The translations under genes were made by a program, and so were the position numbers. The notes under the pieces were generated by a model. That model searched no databases. It was not told the DNA's origin and worked only from the letters and a program-made list of their open reading frames with translations. Shown piece after piece: positions 37,388 to 45,954 of a stretch of 64,000 bases of DNA. Source of the DNA: Nesterenkonia sp. LB17 (GTDB lineage Bacteria > Actinomycetota > Actinomycetes > Actinomycetales > Micrococcaceae); the NCBI RefSeq assembly GCF_022565915.1, contig NZ_JAJOYX010000006.1:1-64000 (forward strand), read 5' to 3'. Within the stretch, counting starts at the first letter, position 1. The number at the start of each line of letters is the position of its first letter.

Positions 37388-37966
37388 ATGGCTTCAGAGA
37401 CGTGGTTGATAGCGGGACTCGGCAACCCCGGGTCCCGCTATCGTCATACCCGGCACAACATCGGGCACATGGTGCTCGACGAGCTCCTCGACCGCATGGA
37501 TGCGAAGTACACGCGCACCAAGGTCGGGGCCAAGGCCGTCGCGGCCCGGCTGGGCCCGGGAGGGCCGAAGGTGGTCTTCGCGATCTCGGAGGGCTACATG
37601 AACCTCTCCGGCAAGCCCGTGCGAGGGCTGATGGACTATTTCTCGGTCCCCGCCGAAAACCTGATCGTGGTCCACGATGAGCTCGACCTGGACTTCGGTC
37701 GTGCCAAGCTCAAGCGCGGGGGGTCCGAAGGCGGGCACAACGGGCTGAAATCCATCACCACCCACCTGGGCGGGAATCGTGACTATCTGCGTGTGCGCGC
37801 CGGCGTGGGCAGGCCCCCCGGCCGCATGGACAGCGCGGACTACGTGTTGCAGAAGTTCAGCGCCGCCGAGCAGAAGGAGCTGGGCATCTTCATCTCCCGG
37901 CTGGCCGATGCAGTGGAGCTGCTGATCTCCGACGGGCTGCCAGCTGCCCAGAATGCTGTGCACTGA
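37388..37966 (+). CDS. pth: Peptidyl-tRNA hydrolase
   Basis: Pth releases peptides from prematurely dissociated peptidyl-tRNA. The 192-residue protein has LIAGLGNPGSRYRHTRHNIGHM with the catalytic His23, then the FGRAKLKRGGSEGGHNGLKSI loop and RVRAGVGRPPGRMDSADYVLQKF. The last codons (GTG CAC TGA) are the first copy of a 14-bp tandem repeat that continues downstream. Confidence 0.95.
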   Translation: MASETWLIAGLGNPGSRYRHTRHNIGHMVLDELLDRMDAKYTRTKVGAKAVAARLGPGGPKVVFAISEGYMNLSGKPVRGLMDYFSVPAENLIVVHDELDLDFGRAKLKRGGSEGGHNGLKSITTHLGGNRDYLRVRAGVGRPPGRMDSADYVLQKFSAAEQKELGIFISRLADAVELLISDGLPAAQNAVH

Positions 37967-38027
37967 ACCCGGTGCACTGAACCCCGTGCACTGAACCCCG
38001 TGCACTGAAGGCTGTGCCCTGAACGCA
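37958..38027. repeat. 14-bp tandem repeat, five units
   Basis: GTGCACTGAACCCS units begin at 37958, 37972, 37986 and 38000. A degenerate fifth unit (GTGCCCTGAACGCA) begins at 38014. The first unit overlaps the end of pth and each unit carries an in-frame or near-frame TGA and the palindrome GTGCAC. It sits between the convergent pth and ppsA genes. Confidence 0.9.
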
Positions 38028-38075
38028 GACACCGTCCGTCGCCGACGACGGCGGCCCGCCCGTGCTCGGGCAGCG

Positions 38076-40457
38076 CTACCGAGACTCTGCCGCACCCGCC
38101 AAGCTGAGCCAGGTCTGCACCACGGTGTCAGGTGTCAGAGAAATCGATTCGATGCCCTGATCAACCAGCCAGCGGGCGAGCTCTGGATGATCTGAGGGTC
38201 CCTGACCGCAGATCCCGATGTACTTGTTCTGCGTCCGGCACCTGTCGATGACCGTGGCCAGCATCGAGAGCACGGCGGGGTCTCGCTCGTCGAAGAGATG
38301 AGCCACCAGGTCCGAGTCCCGATCAACACCGAGCACCAGCTGGGTCAGATCATTGGACCCGATGGAGAACCCGTCGAAATGTTCCAGGAACGCATCGGCG
38401 AGAAGGACATTGCTGGGCAGTTCGCACATCATCATCACCTTCAGGCCTCGTGCCCCGCGGCGGAGCCCATGACTCGCCATGAGGTCGACGACGGTCTGGG
38501 CCTCCTCCACCGTCCTCACGAAGGGCACCATGATCGCCAGGTTCTCCAGACCCATCTCTTCGCGAACGAACCGCAGGGCCTCACACTCCATGGCGAAGCA
38601 CTCCCGGAAGTCCGCGGAGATGTACCGCGAGGCACCTCGATAGCCCAGCATCGGATTCTCCTCCTGCGGCTCGAAGAGCTCCCCGCCCAGGAGGTTGGCG
38701 TATTCATTAGTCTTGAAATCGCTGAACCGCACAATGACCTGCTCCGGGGCGAAGCTGGCCGCGATGGTCGACACTCCCTCCGCCACCCGCCGCACGAAGT
38801 ACTCCCTGGGCGACCCGTAGGCGCTGATCCGCTGGTCCACTGCGCTCCGCACTTCGTGCGGCAGGCTGTCACGCTCCAGGAGCGCACGCGGATGGATGCC
38901 GACCTGGTGGTTGATGATGAACTCCAGGCGGGCGAGCCCCACCCCGTGGTGCGGCAGCTGGGAGAACGAGAATGCCTGATCCGGGGAGGCCACATTCATC
39001 ATGATCTTCACCGGGACGTCCGGCATCTCATCCAGATCGGTCACCTCCTCCTCGAACCTCAGCGTGCCGGCATAGACCATCCCGTTGTCGCCCTCGGCGC
39101 AGGAGATCGTCACCGCCTCGCCGTCGGCCAGGGCCTCTGTGGCGTCCCCCGTTCCCACCACGGCGGGCACACCCAGCTCCCTGGCGAGGATCGCCGCGTG
39201 ACAGGTGCGACCCCCACGTTCGGTGACGATCGCCGAGGCACGCTTCATGATCGGCTCCCAGTCCGGGTCCGTGATCTCAGCCACCAGCACGTCGCCGGGC
39301 TGCAGCCGATCCATGTCCGCCGGCGAGCGAAGGACCCTCACCGGGCCGGTCCCGATCCGCTGCCCGATCGCTCTTCCCACAGTCAGCACGTCACCGCGCT
39401 CGCGGAGCACGAAGCGTCTCACCTGTCGCAGCTCCCGGTGGGACACCACCGTCTCCGGGCGGGCCTGCAGGATGTAGAGCCGTCCGTCGATTCCATCGAG
39501 CGCCCACTCGATGTCCATCGGTCGGCCGTAGTGGTCCTCGATCGCTACAGCACAGCGGCCCAGCTCGGTGACCTGCGCATCGGTGATCGAGAATCGTGCC
39601 CGCTCGGCAGGTGATACGTCCTCGAAGATGGTGCTGCTGTGAAGTCCGCGGCCCGCGGCGTACCGCATCGCGGTGGCCTTCTCGCCGAGCGCCCTGCTCA
39701 AGATGGCTTCATGTCCCTGCTGCAGCGCGGGCTTATGGACGTAGAACTCATCAGGGTTCACCGCCCCCTGGACCACGGCTTCACCCAGACCGTAGGCGCT
39801 CGTGATGAACACCGCCCGATCGAAGCCCGTCTCCGTGTCCACCGTGAACATCACGCCGGATGCTCCGATGTCGGAACGGACCATGCGCTGCACGCCCGCC
39901 GAGAGCGCGACCTTGTGGTGGGCGAAACCATGGTGCACGCGGTAGGCGATCGCCCGGTCGTTGTAGAGCGAGGCAAAGACGCTGTGCACTGCAGCGAGCA
40001 CGTTCTCGACCCCGCCGATGTTCAGGAACGTCTCCTGCTGGCCTGCGAACGAGGCGTCCGGCAGGTCCTCGGCCGTTGCGCTGGAACGGATCGCCCACGA
40101 CACCGCCTCAGGGTCTGGGTCCTCTGCGATCAGCCTCGCGTGCGCTTCGCGCAGGTCTCGTGTGAGCTCCTCGGCCAGGGGCTGATCCTGGATCCATGAA
40201 CGGATCTGCGCGCCGACCCGGGAGAGCTCCACGACATCGTCGATGTCCAGTGGCTCGAGGGCCGCCCGGATCCTGTGGTCGAGTCCGTTCGCAGCGAGGA
40301 ACACGCGGTAGGCATCCGCAGTCGTCGCGAAACCGCCCGGTACACGCACTCCTGCCTCGGAGAGGCGGGCCACCATCTCGCCCAGCGAGGCGTTCTTCCC
40401 GCCCACGGCTGCGATATCGGCAAGCGAGATGTCGTCGAACCACAAGATGTTGCTCAT
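38076..40457 (-). CDS. ppsA: Phosphoenolpyruvate synthase
   Basis: PpsA converts pyruvate and ATP to PEP, AMP and phosphate, the entry to gluconeogenesis. The 793-residue protein has an N-terminal ATP-grasp domain ([40 protein letters not shown]), the phosphohistidine domain with His420 in [23 protein letters not shown], and the PEP-binding barrel ending with [22 protein letters not shown]. The frame is open 24 codons upstream, but ATG 40457 has TGAGGAGA in front. It lies ten bases downstream of ppsR, so enzyme and regulator are co-expressed. Confidence 0.95.
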
Positions 40458-40467
40458 CAGTGTCTCC

Positions 40468-41304
40468 TCAGGGACTGCTTGGCGCTGCGGCGGGACGAAG
40501 ATGCATCGTCTGCAGGATCGCTGCCGCAATCTCTTCCACGCTTCTGGCCGCCGTGTTCAGGCTCGGGATCGAGTGCCGTCGGTACAGGGATTCCGCCCAA
40601 CGCAGCTCTTGGCGGCAGCGGAAGAGGCTTGCATAGGCCCCGCCTGGACGGCGTTCCTGGCGTATCTGGCTCAGCCGCTGCGCAGTGCTGGTCAGCCCGA
40701 AACACCGAACCCGATACGGCTCCACCGCACGGGGCAGCTCCAGTGCCGGGTAGTCCTCCTCCGTCAAGGGGTAGTTGGCGACCCGCAGACCGTGCTGGAG
40801 AGCCAGGTACAGCGCGGTGGGAGTCTTCCCGCAGCGAGATGGAGCGATGATGATGAGATCGGCGCCGACCAGAGAGCTCGCGCCCGCTGCATCGTCGTGC
40901 GTCAATGTGTACTCCACCGCGCGCATGCGGGAGCTGTACTGGTCCAGGTTCCCGATGCTGTGATGCGGGGCCACCTCAGCAGCGCCCTTGACGCCCAGGA
41001 GCTTCTCGAGCGCGGTGAGATGTCCCTTGATGAGATCCACCACGGCGAACGGGCCTGCGCTCAGTTCGGCGCTGACCTCCGCGGCGCGAACGGTCACGAG
41101 CAGCAGGGTGGCAGGTCCCGCGGTGCGCGCCGCACTCAGCACCTGTTGTGCGATCGGCGGGGAATCGACGAAGGGGAAGGTTCTGCGGAGGAATCGGATG
41201 CCGGGGAAGTGCGCCAGGAGCGCGTTGCCGAGGGTCTCGGCGGTGACGCCGGTGTTGTCAGAGATGAAGAACACCGGCACGGGTGCTCCGACGGCGCCGG
41301 TCAT
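40468..41304 (-). CDS. ppsR: PEP synthase regulatory protein (kinase/pyrophosphorylase, DUF299)
   Basis: PpsR-type proteins switch PEP synthase off by ADP-dependent phosphorylation of a threonine near the catalytic histidine and on again by phosphate-dependent removal. The 278-residue protein has the family N terminus [24 protein letters not shown] and the P-loop [27 protein letters not shown] (about 153-180). A second family segment is HDDAAG at about 137. It precedes ppsA in one operon. The genomic link predicts that this PpsA is post-translationally controlled. Confidence 0.93.
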
Positions 41305-41320
41305 GGGTTGGCCGCCCTAC

Positions 41321-41353
41321 CGTGCACCTGAGCGAACCGGTGCCTGGTGCACG
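41321..41353 (-). promoter_or_regulatory. Inverted repeat upstream of ppsR
   Basis: CGTGCACC (41321-41328) and GGTGCACG (41346-41353) are perfect complements separated by 17 bases, in the 67-base gap between the FMN-binding protein gene and ppsR. It could be an operator or an mRNA hairpin that adjusts read-through into ppsR-ppsA. Confidence 0.35.
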
Positions 41354-41371
41354 ATCGTCATAGCCGGTCCT

Positions 41372-41842
41372 TCAGTCGAGGCCTGATCGGGTGGCGTCGT
41401 TCAAGGAGATGTCCCAGGCCTGGGGGTGGGCGACGATGAAGCGTCGACCCGTGACGACCTCCGGCGTGATCCGGACGAAATGGTCTTTCTCGCCCGATTC
41501 CCAGGGGAACAGTCGGCGCGAAGAGCTGCTGAGAGAGTCGTCCGTCTGCTCGACCTCCGCCGCCGTGCCCTTGACGATCACACTCCAGGCGACATTGGTG
41601 CGCGGATCCACACCGTCCGTCTCGAAGGCCACGGGACTGGAGCCCAGCGCGGCCGTCCGTTTCGTGCCGGGCCCGGTGCGGAAGACTATGGTCCGCTGAT
41701 CCACCAGGTAGGTGACCGGGAACAGCTCTGGATGATCACCGGTCCAGACGGCGAGTCTGCCGAGCGAGACGCTGCGCAGCAGCTCCCAGCACTCGCGGCT
41801 CTCGAGGACCTCTGTCCTGGGTGTCGAGGGTGTCTTCTGCAT
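41372..41842 (-). CDS. Pyridoxamine 5'-phosphate oxidase-like FMN-binding protein
   Basis: The 156-residue protein has the split-barrel flavin fold: LESRECWELLRSVSLGRLAVW, HPELFPVTYLVDQRTIVFRTGPGTKR and VAFETDGVDPRTNVAWSVIVKGTA. It belongs to the Pyridox_ox_2 type, of which several members are in the M. tuberculosis DosR regulon. It probably reduces a flavin- or F420-linked substrate rather than acting in vitamin B6 synthesis. It is 67 bases upstream of ppsR on the same strand and divergent from the DevS-like kinase, which supports membership in the same regulon. Confidence 0.82.
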   Translation of the reverse strand: MQKTPSTPRTEVLESRECWELLRSVSLGRLAVWTGDHPELFPVTYLVDQRTIVFRTGPGTKRTAALGSSPVAFETDGVDPRTNVAWSVIVKGTAAEVEQTDDSLSSSSRRLFPWESGEKDHFVRITPEVVTGRRFIVAHPQAWDISLNDATRSGLD

Positions 41843-41995
41843 GGCGGCGAGCTTACTCCGGCTCCACCGCGGAAGCCAGAGTCTGAAGCGAAGGCGATGC
41901 CGCTCACGTCCGCCGCCTCGGCGACTGCTGGCCGCGCCGGTTCACCGTCGCAGCGCTGCGGAGCTGAACGGGGTTCTCTTTCCCGAGGAAAGACA

Positions 41996-42001
41996 TAGAA
42001 T
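41996..42001 (+). promoter_or_regulatory. Candidate -10 element (TAGAAT) of devS
   Basis: TAGAAT lies 30 bases before the kinase start and is followed by a strong AAGGAGG ribosome binding site (about 42020). TTCTCT at 41974 is a weak -35 at 16 bases. The local sequence is AT-richer than its surroundings. Confidence 0.4.
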
Positions 42002-42030
42002 GGAATTTAGTTCTTGATGTAAGGAGGGTT

Positions 42031-43725
42031 ATGGATGCCGATGAACTTCGGGTGACCTACCTTCCGAAGCTTGAAGTCAATGGTGCGGTGGGGGATTCCA
42101 TCGCGCGCACTATCCGGGTCCTCAGCTCCCAGCGCAGGCTGCAGACCCTGCTCGACGCCAGCAACGTCGTGGCCAGCGATCTGGACCTGGAACATGTTCT
42201 GCGGCGCATCGCCGAGGAGGCCAGGACCGTCGCGGACGCCGAGTACGCCGCACTGGGCGTCATCGCCGCTGATGGCTCCCTCGAGCGGTTCATCCACGTC
42301 GGGATGGCGCAGCACGTGGCCGAGAAGATCGGAGACCTGCCCGCCGGGCACGGGGTCCTGGGCGCGGTGAACCAGAGCAGCAACCCGATCCGACTCACCG
42401 ACCTCACCACGGATCCCCGGGCGGTCGGCTTTCCCGCCCACCACCCGCCGATGAACAGCTTCCTCGGGGTCCCAATCAAGATCCGCGGCGAGACCTACGG
42501 CAACCTCTACCTCACCAACCGGGCCGATGGGCCCTTCACCGACGAGGACGAAGAACTCGTCACGGCGCTGGCCGCCACGGCTGCGACCGCGATCAACAAC
42601 GCCCGACTCTACGAAGAGGCCCGCCGAGCGCAGCAGCTCAGCGCCGTCCTGGGCGATGTCACCTCAGCTCTGCTGGCCTCGGAGACCATCGATGTCTTCG
42701 GCGTCCTGGCTCACGGGGTCGCGACCCTCACCGAAGCGGACTTCGCCGCCATCGTGACCTCCGACGCGGTGGGCGAAGAGCTCTTCATCGACACCGCCCG
42801 CGGACAGGGCGCCTCGCTGATCGAGGGCGAGGTGCTGCCCTGGGTCGAAGGCGCGGTATCGCGGGCCATGGAGGGGACGGCGAGCATCTCGCCTCCCGAG
42901 GGAACAGATGTCCCACCGTTCTGTGAGCGGGTCCCGAGCTCCTCGGTGATCGCTGTTCCGCTGATCGTCTCCGGGGACCGCATCGGCGCGGTCTGCGCGA
43001 CCCGGGCCGAGTCCCGGCCGGCCTTTAACCCCGGTGACCTGGAGCTGCTCTCGGACTTCGCGACCCAGGCGGGTCTGGCTGTGGCGTTGTCCTGGGCGCG
43101 AGCGGATCGGCAGCGGCTCGGCGTGATCGAAGACCGGGCGCGCACTGCTCGGGATCTCCATGACCATGTCATCCAGCGGCTCTTCGCCACGGGCCTGGGA
43201 CTGCAGGCCTTCGCCTCGGCCCACCCCCGACATGCCGGGAGGATCGACAGGCATGTGGCGGAGATCGACGCGGCCATTGAAGACATCCGCAACGCGATAT
43301 TCACTCTGCGCACCCGTAAGACCACCAGGACGATGCGTCATCGGCTGCTCGATGTCGTCACCGAGCTCTCGGCCGGGCTGGGCATGGCTCCGAAGGTGAC
43401 CTTCACGGGTCAGATCGATGCGTTCATCAAGGGTGAGCTCGCAGATGATGTCGTCGCGGTCCTGCGTGAGACGGTCACCAACGTGACTCGCCATGCCAGG
43501 GCGACTGCGGTCTCGATCGAGGTCCAGGCAGACTCCGCCGGAGTCACGGTCACGGTCGGTGACGACGGGGTCGGCCTGGCTGCCGGTGACAAGATCGCGA
43601 GCGGCACGGCGAACCTGCGGGCCAGGGCGCGTGCTCGGGGTGGTGCCTTTGGGCTGACCCCGGGGGAGAACGGCGGGGTGCGGGCGCGCTGGCACGTCCC
43701 GGTCCATGGTCAGGACGTCCCATGA
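42031..43725 (+). CDS. devS: DevS/DosT-like GAF sensor histidine kinase, probable heme sensor
   Basis: The 564-residue soluble kinase has two GAF domains (about 45-190 and 210-350), a HisKA_3 dimerisation domain with His377 in ARDLHDHVIQRLF, and a C-terminal HATPase domain with ETVTNVTRHARA and VGDDGVGL. The first GAF domain contains GFPAHHPPMNSFLGVPI (His137/His138). This is the same motif that holds the proximal heme histidine in M. tuberculosis DosS and DosT, which sense O2, NO, CO or redox. The C-terminal ATG overlaps the regulator gene start (ATGA at 43722). ATG 42031 has AAGGAGG upstream. There is no transmembrane segment. Confidence 0.9.
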   Translation: MDADELRVTYLPKLEVNGAVGDSIARTIRVLSSQRRLQTLLDASNVVASDLDLEHVLRRIAEEARTVADAEYAALGVIAADGSLERFIHVGMAQHVAEKIGDLPAGHGVLGAVNQSSNPIRLTDLTTDPRAVGFPAHHPPMNSFLGVPIKIRGETYGNLYLTNRADGPFTDEDEELVTALAATAATAINNARLYEEARRAQQLSAVLGDVTSALLASETIDVFGVLAHGVATLTEADFAAIVTSDAVGEELFIDTARGQGASLIEGEVLPWVEGAVSRAMEGTASISPPEGTDVPPFCERVPSSSVIAVPLIVSGDRIGAVCATRAESRPAFNPGDLELLSDFATQAGLAVALSWARADRQRLGVIEDRARTARDLHDHVIQRLFATGLGLQAFASAHPRHAGRIDRHVAEIDAAIEDIRNAIFTLRTRKTTRTMRHRLLDVVTELSAGLGMAPKVTFTGQIDAFIKGELADDVVAVLRETVTNVTRHARATAVSIEVQADSAGVTVTVGDDGVGLAAGDKIASGTANLRARARARGGAFGLTPGENGGVRARWHVPVHGQDVP

Positions 43726-44369
43726 TCAGGGTCTTCCTCGTCGATGATCATGAGATCGTCCGACGCGGCATTGCGCGGCTCGTCGACGTCGAACCAGAGT
43801 TGGAGGTCGTGGGGGAGTCGGCGACGGTGCGCGGGACGCTCGACCGGGTTCAGGTCACGCATCCTGATGTGGTCGTGCTGGATCTGCACCTGCCTGACGG
43901 GACCGGGATCGATCTGTGTCGCAGCATCCGTTCTGCGCACCCGGCGATCCGCTGCCTGATCCTGACCGCCGATGATGACGAGAGCGCCCGCGTCGCGGCG
44001 GTCATCGCCGGCGCCTCGGGACATGTGCTCAAGAGCATCCGCGGGGGGCGTCTGGTCGAGGCCATCCTGCGGATCGCCCGGGGTGAGAGTCTGATCCCCG
44101 AGAATCTGGCGGAGCGAGTGCACAGAGACCTCTCTGCCCAGGCGCTTCACGCCCGGCGGCCGCGCGTGAGCCTCACGCTGCGCGAGCAGCAGGTGCTGAA
44201 GCTGATCACCGAGGGACTGACGAACAGGCAGATCGGGCAGCGGCTGGGTCTCGCGGAGAAGACCGTGAAGAACTACGTCTCCGGGCTGCTGGCCAAGCTC
44301 GGCATGGAGCGCAGGACTCAGGTAGCCGCCTACGGTGCCGCCACCCAAGACAGTGCTATCCACAGCTGA
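43722..44369 (+). CDS. devR: DevR/DosR-like NarL-family response regulator
   Basis: The 215-residue regulator has a receiver domain with Asp8/Asp9, phospho-acceptor Asp54 in VVVLDLHLPDG, Thr82 and Lys104, the same numbering as M. tuberculosis DosR. A GerE/LuxR helix-turn-helix follows at about 150-205 (LTNRQIGQRLGLAEKTVKNYVSGLLAKLGMERRTQ), nearly identical to DosR in the recognition helix. It overlaps the kinase gene by four bases. The likely target is the palindrome at 44401-44419, just downstream of this gene. Confidence 0.93.
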   Translation: MIRVFLVDDHEIVRRGIARLVDVEPELEVVGESATVRGTLDRVQVTHPDVVVLDLHLPDGTGIDLCRSIRSAHPAIRCLILTADDDESARVAAVIAGASGHVLKSIRGGRLVEAILRIARGESLIPENLAERVHRDLSAQALHARRPRVSLTLREQQVLKLITEGLTNRQIGQRLGLAEKTVKNYVSGLLAKLGMERRTQVAAYGAATQDSAIHS

Positions 44370-44400
44370 CACACCTGTCTGGCGCCCACCGATGCCTCTG

Positions 44401-44419
44401 GTAGGACCTATGGCCCTAC
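44401..44419. promoter_or_regulatory. DosR-box-like palindrome GTAGGACCTATGGCCCTAC
   Basis: GTAGGACC-TAT-GGCCCTAC is an inverted repeat with one mismatched position. It resembles the DosR/DevR box (GGGACT with AGTCCC) in size and G/C-rich ends. It lies 72 bases before the preferred start of the BON gene, which would place a start point at about 44455 in the activator position. Confidence 0.5.
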
Positions 44420-44491
44420 ATGAGCCCGACCCTGATGCGAGAGGCTGGACCCAGCTCGCAGGACTGCGGGCAGGGAGAAGGGAATCCACCT

Positions 44492-45163
44492 GTGATCATC
44501 GCGACAAGAACTCGATCAGACAACAAGATCCACTCTCTGGTTCTCGCCGAACTCGAGTGGACGCCGGAGATCGACGCCTCAGAGGTCGAGGTCGAGGTCG
44601 AAGCCGGAGTCGTCACCTTGTCGGGTGAAGTGGGGGACTACTTCGAATACCTCGCCGCCTCGCGTGCCATGCGACGCGTGCACGGCATCGCTGGGGTTCA
44701 GAATCGGCTGACCGTGCTTCCTCGCTCGGCGAGATGGGTCACCGACACGGACATCGGCCGCGTCGCTGAACGTGTCCTGACCTGGTCCGCGAACATCCCA
44801 GGGACGGTGCGGTCGCGGGTCGAGGGTGGGTGCGTGACGCTCACCGGGCAGGTCGACTGGCACTTTCAGCGGGAAGCGGCCGAGCGGGCGGTGGAGAACA
44901 TCCGGGGAGTGCATACGGTGCGCAACGAGGTCACGCTGATCCCCCGCCCCGTCTCCGAGGAAGCCGCCGAACGGATCAGGAGTGCCCTGTTCCGCGATCC
45001 CCAGGTCGACGCCGGCCGCATCAGCGTCTCAGTCGTGGGCAACACTGCGGTCCTCACCGGATACGTGAAGTCGCTGATGGAGAAGACCCAGGCAGGTGAG
45101 GCTGCCTGGTCCTCACCTGACGTCACCACGATCGACAATCGCCTCGACGTGCGCCCCTACTGA
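44492..45163 (+). CDS. Protein with three BON domains
   Basis: The 223-residue protein consists of three BON repeats (about 12-78, 82-150 and 153-222), each with the alternating pattern around V-TLSGEV, VTLTGQV and AVLTGYV. BON domains bind phospholipids or attach to envelope proteins and are common in DosR-like regulons and osmotic stress proteins. There is no signal peptide, so it is probably cytoplasmic or at the inner face of the membrane. GTG 44492 has GGAGAAGGG upstream. An in-frame ATG at 44420 would start directly after the DosR-like box and is less likely. Confidence 0.8.
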   Translation: MIIATRTRSDNKIHSLVLAELEWTPEIDASEVEVEVEAGVVTLSGEVGDYFEYLAASRAMRRVHGIAGVQNRLTVLPRSARWVTDTDIGRVAERVLTWSANIPGTVRSRVEGGCVTLTGQVDWHFQREAAERAVENIRGVHTVRNEVTLIPRPVSEEAAERIRSALFRDPQVDAGRISVSVVGNTAVLTGYVKSLMEKTQAGEAAWSSPDVTTIDNRLDVRPY

Positions 45164-45275
45164 GGCGCACGCACTGATCGCAGCACACTTCCGGGCCCGT
45201 GAGCGCTGGGCCCAGCTCGACGCCGCTTCGAAGTCCACCCGACCTGAATCACCCGTCCCACGAGAGGAAGGGACC

Positions 45276-45695
45276 ATGACAGATCATCTTTCTCGCTTCG
45301 ATTCGCTGGCAGGGTTGGTGAGTCTTCGCTGCAACTTGTTCGACGACGGGATGCGCGGAACGCCGAGCACCGACGTCTACACCAGGGATGAGAAGGAACT
45401 GGTCGTGGAGGCGCATCTGCCGAATTTCGCGGACACCGACATCACCGTCAGCGTCGACGATCGAACGCTCGTGATCCAGGCGGAGCGGCGCGAACGCGAG
45501 GAGGACAAGGGCAAGCGGTACCTGCTCCGCGAGAGCACCAGCAGCTTTCGCCGCAGCGTCGATCTCCCGGAGCAGGCGAAGGACCGGCAGATCAGGGCGG
45601 TCTTCGACCACGGGGTTCTGACGGTGTCCGTTCCGCTGGAGGAATCGACCACGCTCAAGTGGATACCGATCGACAACGGACACTCGAACAACTGA
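45276..45695 (+). CDS. Hsp20/alpha-crystallin family small heat shock protein
   Basis: The 139-residue chaperone has an N-terminal arm, the alpha-crystallin domain (TDVYTRDEKELVVEAHLPNFADTDITVSVDDRTLVIQAERR, RYLLRESTSSFRRSVDLPEQA) and a C-terminal extension. The A-x-x-x-n-GVL motif appears as DHGVLTVSVPL. It prevents protein aggregation during stress. HspX of the M. tuberculosis DosR regulon is the functional analogue. ATG 45276 has GAGGAAGGGA upstream; the 112-base gap after the BON gene contains two GGGCCC palindromes. Confidence 0.92.
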   Translation: MTDHLSRFDSLAGLVSLRCNLFDDGMRGTPSTDVYTRDEKELVVEAHLPNFADTDITVSVDDRTLVIQAERREREEDKGKRYLLRESTSSFRRSVDLPEQAKDRQIRAVFDHGVLTVSVPLEESTTLKWIPIDNGHSNN

Positions 45696-45735
45696 CTCCG
45701 GCAAGACCGGAGTCTGCAAAGACTAAGGGGGCGTG

Positions 45736-45954
45736 ATGTTCGACTGGCTCTATTTCTGGAACCTCATCTGGTCCTTCTTCACGCTGCTCTCGCTCGTCTT
45801 CGTTCCGGTCTTCATCGTGATGATCTACTTCGTCACGCGGACACCCAGGGCTCGGGCACCTGGAGCTCGTCCTGGGGCCTCGTCGAGGTTTGCCCGCTCG
45901 GACGGCGCGGTGCCCGGGCCCGTGGGTGAGAGTCACACGAAGAAGGCCGCGTGA
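45736..45954 (+). CDS. Small single-span membrane protein
   Basis: The product of about 72 residues begins MFDWLYFWNLIWSFFTLLSLVFVPVFIVMIYFVTR, one long or two short membrane helices, and then an Arg/Ala/Pro-rich cytoplasmic tail. ATG 45736 has AAGGGGG at seven bases; GTG 45733 is the alternative. It is 40 bases after Hsp20 and is likely the last gene of the stress cluster. The function is unknown. Confidence 0.65.
   Translation: MFDWLYFWNLIWSFFTLLSLVFVPVFIVMIYFVTRTPRARAPGARPGASSRFARSDGAVPGPVGESHTKKAA

Follow-up and report, generated by a model that had tools for sequence, protein, structure and literature searches.

Neighbouring gene blocks at the pth site of Nesterenkonia sp. LB17: a DosS/DosR-type module and a phosphoenolpyruvate synthase unit that was probably gained later

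Does a phosphoenolpyruvate (PEP) synthase encoded beside a DosS/DosR-type two-component system belong to the response of that system, or is it only its neighbour? The question is raised by a locus of Nesterenkonia sp. LB17 (Micrococcaceae; genome G000 of the comparisons below) on contig NZ_JAJOYX010000006.1, of which a stretch of 64 kb, here called the window, was analysed. From left to right the locus contains rplY and pth, on the minus strand ppsA (PEP synthase), ppsR (its regulatory enzyme) and a gene for a PNPOx-type flavin mononucleotide (FMN)-binding protein, and on the plus strand devS (sensor kinase), devR (response regulator), the genes of a BON protein and of the small heat-shock protein Hsp20, and a gene for 72 amino acids, followed by DUF2505 (minus strand), a calcium/sodium antiporter gene and mfd. 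The start of devR overlaps the stop of devS, and the pps block and the devS block are divergent, with a gap of 188 bp between the PNPOx gene and devS (41843-42030). An earlier note on this DNA had named DevS/DevR, the FMN-binding protein, BON, Hsp20, a small membrane protein and ppsR-ppsA, all of which are present at about the positions it gave, and had interpreted PEP synthase as a built-in metabolic output of the sensor system. We consider it likely that the locus consists of two blocks which have become neighbours, i.e. devSR-BON-hsp20-small gene and a later-gained PEP synthase unit without visible DevR control.

The evidence comes mainly from the pth site in related genomes. Site occupancy was recorded in the 29 genus genomes with pth; genes in relatives were called by a scripted, simple rule based on open reading frames and GC content at third codon positions (GC3), and the loci L026, L027, L222 and L223 were screened with the module proteins only. 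DUF2505 follows pth directly in 23 of the 29 genomes, with a gap of 15-208 bp and no insert, and in one genome (G205) some 1.2 kb of different sequence occupies the site. BON is found there in five (G000, G042, G089, G178 and G213), three of which have devS and one pps. In G178 and G213 BON is accompanied by the small gene; to this pair devS is added in G089, and devS, devR and a damaged hsp20 in G042, which lacks pps there. Only the present genome has pps at the pth site, and among the five with BON only this one has an intact hsp20 there. In blastn alignments from 37001 on, the match to G042 breaks off after 37969 and starts again at 41960, shortly before devS, whereas the match to G089 breaks off after 37968 and starts again at 41970. 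The most plausible reading is that the pps block was inserted later, between pth and devS.

Two details of the relatives may be added. In G089 (L211, 8928-10619) devS, the DevR-type box described below and BON are kept at the pth site, and no devR was found there. The hsp20 of G042 (L210, 11538-11830) looks damaged, with a missing stretch and a frame change compared to the window copy.

PpsR was found in 3 of 30 genus genomes, i.e. G000, G201 and G206. It could be argued from the occurrence of ppsRA in two distant members of the genus, G201 and G206, that ppsA-ppsR-PNPOx was ancestral at the pth site and has been lost many times, so that the linkage would be old. However, in both genomes ppsA-ppsR is located on another contig than pth, DUF2505 follows pth directly at no more than 208 bp and DevS is lacking at E 1e-60, and PpsR is absent from the eight genomes whose Pth is most similar (91-97%). 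An old linkage of this kind appears very improbable to us, and we infer insertion rather than repeated loss. The PNPOx gene goes with the pps block, because G201 has a 69% identical PNPOx near its ppsA-ppsR, a phosphofructokinase gene lying between ppsR and PNPOx. In G206 a pyruvate kinase gene adjoins ppsR.

Outside the genus the two blocks are likewise found apart. PpsR occurs in 38 of the 197 genomes of a family sample, and 39 family ppsR loci were fetched with about 9.5 kb of flank on each side (five are shorter at contig ends). In all 39, ppsA lies beside ppsR; devS is adjacent in none, DevS is present in one only (G063, about 7 kb off), and the DevR, BON and Hsp20 proteins of the module were found in none at E 1e-10. 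The earlier note had suggested such a survey of synteny, in which the linkage of ppsRA and devSR is seen not to be conserved. Among the 29 family genomes with both proteins, PpsR lies within 2 kb of DevS only in the present one, and the same holds for linkage among the five genomes with both in a phylum sample, three of the other four having them on different contigs. G063 was set aside as a second devS-pps case: the DNA between the two contains an ABC-transporter gene and two frames read as its permeases, and the promoter of the G063 ppsA is without a box. A shortened DevS-like kinase with GAF and HisKA_3 domains, a flavodoxin and a PNPOx protein are encoded in that genome about 4-9 kb from ppsA-ppsR (L061, 7077-18930). 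In named genomes 538 PpsR loci were confirmed, and because the 80 of them that were kept (41-46% identity) were by title nearly all from Gammaproteobacteria, mostly Pseudomonas, they did not inform the actinobacterial question.

DevS and DevR were compared with the proteins of Mycobacterium tuberculosis. The first GAF domain of DevS matches DosT with E 1.3e-43 and DosS with E about 1e-38, and the architecture, two GAF domains followed by HisKA_3 and HATPase, is that demanded of a DosS/DosT-type kinase. The heme-histidine motif GFPAHHPPM pointed out in the earlier note begins at residue 133; its second histidine, H138, aligns with His149 of DosS and Y160 with Tyr171, the proximal and distal heme residues of DosS, respectively (PMC4082495, in the part available). 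G76 sits at the position of DosS Glu87. DosT likewise has Gly there, which has been proposed to permit stable O2 binding, with the data being disputed (available part of the same article). DevS could be a GAF kinase for another signal which has retained the heme motif by descent, given that both Glu87 and His89 of DosS are replaced and that heme binding is a prediction from sequence. This is unlikely in our opinion, as the Gly is shared with DosT, and the proximal His, distal Tyr and Gly were found in all six DevS proteins aligned (window, contigs C8 and C4 of the same genome, G042, G089 and G178).

DevR matches DosR with E 9e-59, which like the GAF match to DosT goes far past anything expected by chance, with D8, D9, D54, T82 and K104 kept and the recognition helix nearly the same; Asp54, Thr82 and Lys104 are at exactly the positions that had been noted. 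Scores for membership in MadS/MadR were below the cut-offs (NCBIfam NF047786, 78.3 vs 500; NF047785, 155.6 vs 300). The comparison supports the classing of DevS with the DosS/DosT kinases and of DevR with DosR, and we infer heme binding, the signal and phosphotransfer from it. In total the genome encodes three DevS and two DevR proteins. A second intact devS on contig C8 (C8:481-2172, L025) is 98.8% identical to the window devS over 1708 bp, and the two genes differ at 21 of 1692 nucleotides and their proteins at 7 amino acids; at the 21 differing sites G042 is matched by the window copy at 8 and by the C8 copy at 7. The C8 devS is trailed only by a short devR fragment, after which the contig ends. 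The third devS, on C4, is 55% identical and has its own devR (71%).

The start of BON is preceded by a 19-bp box, TAGGACCTATGGCCCTACA, with its centre 81 nt away. The box is kept before BON in all four relatives with BON at the pth site (G042, G089, G178 and G213), and a changed form stands before the BON paralogue on C4. With a matrix built from 11 sites outside the window the box scores 28.9 bits, against 13.1 for the second-best separate place in the window. These results support a DosR-type box before a target gene, BON, and DevR would be expected to bind at 44402-44420. The pps promoters have no box above chance: the best scores were -0.09 bits in the PNPOx/devS gap (1.4 expected by chance), -1.8 bits in the ppsR/PNPOx gap (1.3 expected) and 3.8 bits upstream of ppsA (0.23 expected), the last at a place inside ppsR. 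The best score in the BON/hsp20 gap was -0.55 bits (0.8 expected).

Elsewhere in the genome, places with the pattern GGACC-N3-GGCCCTA at up to one mismatch are clustered. Twelve of the 21 places outside the window were examined with their neighbours, picked partly for closeness to clusters of universal stress protein (USP) genes or to each other. Eight of the 12 stand before or between genes of BON, USP, zinc alcohol dehydrogenase, D-2-hydroxyacid dehydrogenase, PfkB and P-type ATPase proteins (in one case just within a USP frame, if that frame is read at its longest). Of the other four, three fall within other coding frames and one precedes a short unassigned frame. A lactate permease gene follows the D-2-hydroxyacid dehydrogenase gene with the box. 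When genus genomes were compared for the exact pattern GGACC-N3-GGCCCTR, there were 50 matches vs 72 for the control in nine of the 10 DevS-bearing genomes and 18 vs 76 in nine of the 20 without DevS (Fisher p 0.0007; Mann-Whitney p 0.012 for counts per genome), these 9 + 9 genomes being hand-chosen, kinship being uncorrected and some sites being orthologous. Spacers of A/T only occurred in 21 of the 50 and in none of the 18, a split made after seeing the list. A wider DevR regulon with metabolic genes elsewhere in the genome is likely, judging from these sites.

Two groups of sites stand out by position. Three boxes within 7 kb at C1:355997-362923 (L276, L277), with the D-2-hydroxyacid dehydrogenase and lactate permease, a PfkB kinase and a P-type cation ATPase, likely mark a hypoxia metabolic cluster. 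Three others are found around BON, PNPOx, USP and alcohol dehydrogenase genes at C3:311048-315091 (L023), where the PNPOx paralogue directly follows a USP gene whose start carries a DevR-type box. A second PPDK_N protein on C1, one half of a split PEP-synthase-like pair, was considered as a DevR target and set aside; a one-mismatch box in its surroundings (C1:371630) falls inside a coding frame. The split pair (623 and 362 amino acids) is located at C1:372990-377265 (L277:12991-17266) beside a cytochrome P450-like gene and near ferredoxin-, FAD reductase- and aldehyde dehydrogenase-like frames, names that except for PPDK_N are readings of the sequence.

With the sites listed, the possibility can be weighed that DevR activates PNPOx-ppsR-ppsA from a shared divergent promoter and that oxygen limitation thereby sends pyruvate to PEP. 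The divergent adjacency, the PNPOx paralogue behind a box-bearing USP gene on C3 and the family-level co-occurrence of PpsR and DevS are consistent with it. In addition, OsdR binds the SCO0207/SCO0208 intergenic region of Streptomyces coelicolor, SCO0208 being pyruvate phosphate dikinase (PPDK), according to the available part of PMC5069765, and a DosR-type link to PEP formation is therefore known elsewhere. We nevertheless regard DevR control of pps as very unlikely: besides the lack of a box above chance and the separate occurrence of pps and devSR in relatives, the box scores of the family ppsRA promoters resemble those of random slices, a single one of the 39 reaching the 0.02 level. Furthermore, the predicted regulon with PfkB and D-2-hydroxyacid dehydrogenase appears to be glycolytic and fermentative, and therefore inducing PEP synthase under such conditions would counteract it. 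Of the interpretation in the earlier note, the DosS/DosT-DosR-type system is retained; the box before BON and, likely, a wider regulon with metabolic genes elsewhere in the genome come in addition. Its proposal of ppsR-ppsA as the output is not borne out, considering the box scores, devSR-BON without pps in G042 and ppsRA without DevS in G201 and G206.

Several observations speak against two independent blocks or weaken the case for the box. DevS (E 1e-60) was found in 29 of the 38 PpsR-bearing family genomes vs 32 of the 159 others (Fisher p 1e-10, uncorrected for kinship and genome size). The corresponding numbers in the phylum sample were 5 of 46 vs 60 of 350 (p 0.40), and in the genus PpsR occurs in 1 of 10 DevS-bearing genomes vs 2 of 20 others; DevS was scored among the best 7 candidates per genome in the family and the best 3 in the phylum sample. 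The high score of the BON box arises partly by construction, because three of the 11 matrix sites are BON orthologues of the window site. A second matrix, from eight Streptomyces OsdR sites in the available part of PMC5069765, gave the BON box 4.1 bits (0.14 expected in the region), which is weak support, and had its best window match, 16.3 bits, inside the devS coding sequence at 42520; it was dropped as a site ranker in this genus. The genome-wide number of boxes by itself shows nothing, because the 22 places at up to one mismatch are fewer than the 125 obtained with the reversed control. Finally, DevR could act via a degenerate site, because no more than 188 bp separate the two divergent blocks. 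Capture of the pps unit by DevR through such a site, with both the window and the C8 DevS feeding the window DevR, is in our estimate very improbable; if it were true, one species would have gained an oxygen-controlled, PpsR-buffered entry into gluconeogenesis.

According to the preferred reading of two neighbouring blocks, loss of O2, or binding of nitric oxide or carbon monoxide, at the DevS heme would lead to phosphorylation of DevR, which would activate BON from its box. Transcription of BON probably reads through to hsp20 and the small membrane gene as one transcript. DevR would also drive genes at scattered places, which encode universal stress proteins, BON proteins and enzymes of fermentation or glycolysis. 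The ppsA-ppsR-PNPOx genes would form an ordinary PEP synthase unit, in which PpsR may set PpsA activity by ADP and phosphate, to which PpsR answers in Escherichia coli (PMC2817694 and also PMC8100219, in the parts available). It is thus probable that a genus of small genomes within this actinobacterial family uses a DosR-like hypoxia regulon with a recognisable box; the real metabolic output of this regulon is, by the list of boxes, probably the D-2-hydroxyacid dehydrogenase with lactate permease, PfkB and alcohol dehydrogenase. The locus is an example of neighbouring genes that suggest a metabolic circuit for which their distribution among relatives gives no support.

The features of the locus are collected in Table 1. 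The ppsA start is most likely ATG 40457 (MSNILWFDD...) rather than TTG 40529, and that of the BON protein most likely GTG 44492. PpsA scores 1130.7 bits against the TIGR01418 cut-off of 739.75; its GGRTCH, at residue 415, is the GGRTxH motif of PEP synthase, and we take the phospho-His and the adjacent Thr to have the same roles as in E. coli PpsA. PpsR is above the cut-off of NF003742 (232.2 vs 225) and below that of the narrow PpsR equivalog NF049928 (281.3 vs 350 bits), and has the P-loop-like SRCGKT at residue 156. Scans for sigma-70 promoters and terminators gave 0 and 0 matches, the shuffle means being 0.7 and 2.6. A short tandem repeat of GTGCACTGAACCCC-like units is located at 37955-38010, just past pth and beside the probable insertion border.

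Table 1 Features of the pth-DUF2505 region in window coordinates (aa, amino acids)
Feature	Position	Strand	Basis
ppsA, phosphoenolpyruvate synthase, 793 aa	38076..40457	-	Pfam PPDK_N / PEP-utilizers / PEP-utilizers_C; TIGR01418 and NF005057 above cut-off; GGRTCH
ppsR, PEP synthase regulatory kinase/pyrophosphorylase (DUF299), 278 aa	40468..41304	-	PF03618, 218 bits; SRCGKT
PNPOx-type FMN-binding protein, 156 aa	41372..41842	- (as ppsR-ppsA)	PF12900, 98 bits; PDB 6eci, E 2e-27
ppsA-ppsR-PNPOx segment, missing between pth and devS in G042 and G089; probable insertion	37970..41959		blastn
devS, sensor kinase, 564 aa: GAF-A, GAF-B, HisKA_3, HATPase	42031..43725	+	Pfam; PDB DosT/DosS; alignment
devR, NarL/DosR-type response regulator, 215 aa	43722..44369	+	PDB 3c3w (DevR), E 9e-59; key residues
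Predicted DevR/DosR-type box TAGGACCTATGGCCCTACA before BON	44402..44420	+	conservation; 28.9 bits
Protein of three BON domains, 223 aa	44492..45163	+	PF04972, three stretches
Hsp20 small heat-shock protein, 139 aa	45276..45695	+	PF00011, 68 bits
Small protein, 72 aa, one hydrophobic segment	45736..45954	+	kept at pth site in G042, G089, G178 and G213

A literature search on DosR with phosphoenolpyruvate synthase and Arthrobacter found no paper, and searches that combined DevR with BON, USP or related genera showed no title on this locus among the matches listed. A word search in the main text of the Mycobacterium abscessus DosRS paper PMC10034137 found no dikinase, phosphoenolpyruvate, PEP synthase, lactate dehydrogenase, phosphofructokinase or pyridoxamine.

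Three known systems may be compared with the present one. The closest is DosS/DosT-DosR (DevS/DevR) of M. tuberculosis, with which it shares the GAF-GAF-HisKA_3-HATPase kinase with proximal His and distal Tyr, and the NarL-type regulator with Asp54, Thr82, Lys104 and a nearly identical recognition helix; it differs from DosS in the Gly at position 87, as in DosT, and in having two DevR and three DevS proteins, with two of the devS genes 98.8% alike in DNA. OsdK-OsdR of S. coelicolor is also a DosR-type system with USP targets (PMC5069765, available part), but there the PPDK (SCO0208) promoter region is bound, whereas here the neighbouring gene encodes a PEP synthase and no site was found. The pps block resembles PpsA-PpsR (DUF299) of E. 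coli, a PEP synthase with its bifunctional kinase/pyrophosphorylase as described in the available part of PMC2817694, from which it differs by the PNPOx-type gene upstream in the same direction and by a PpsR that scores below the narrow NCBI equivalog cut-off.

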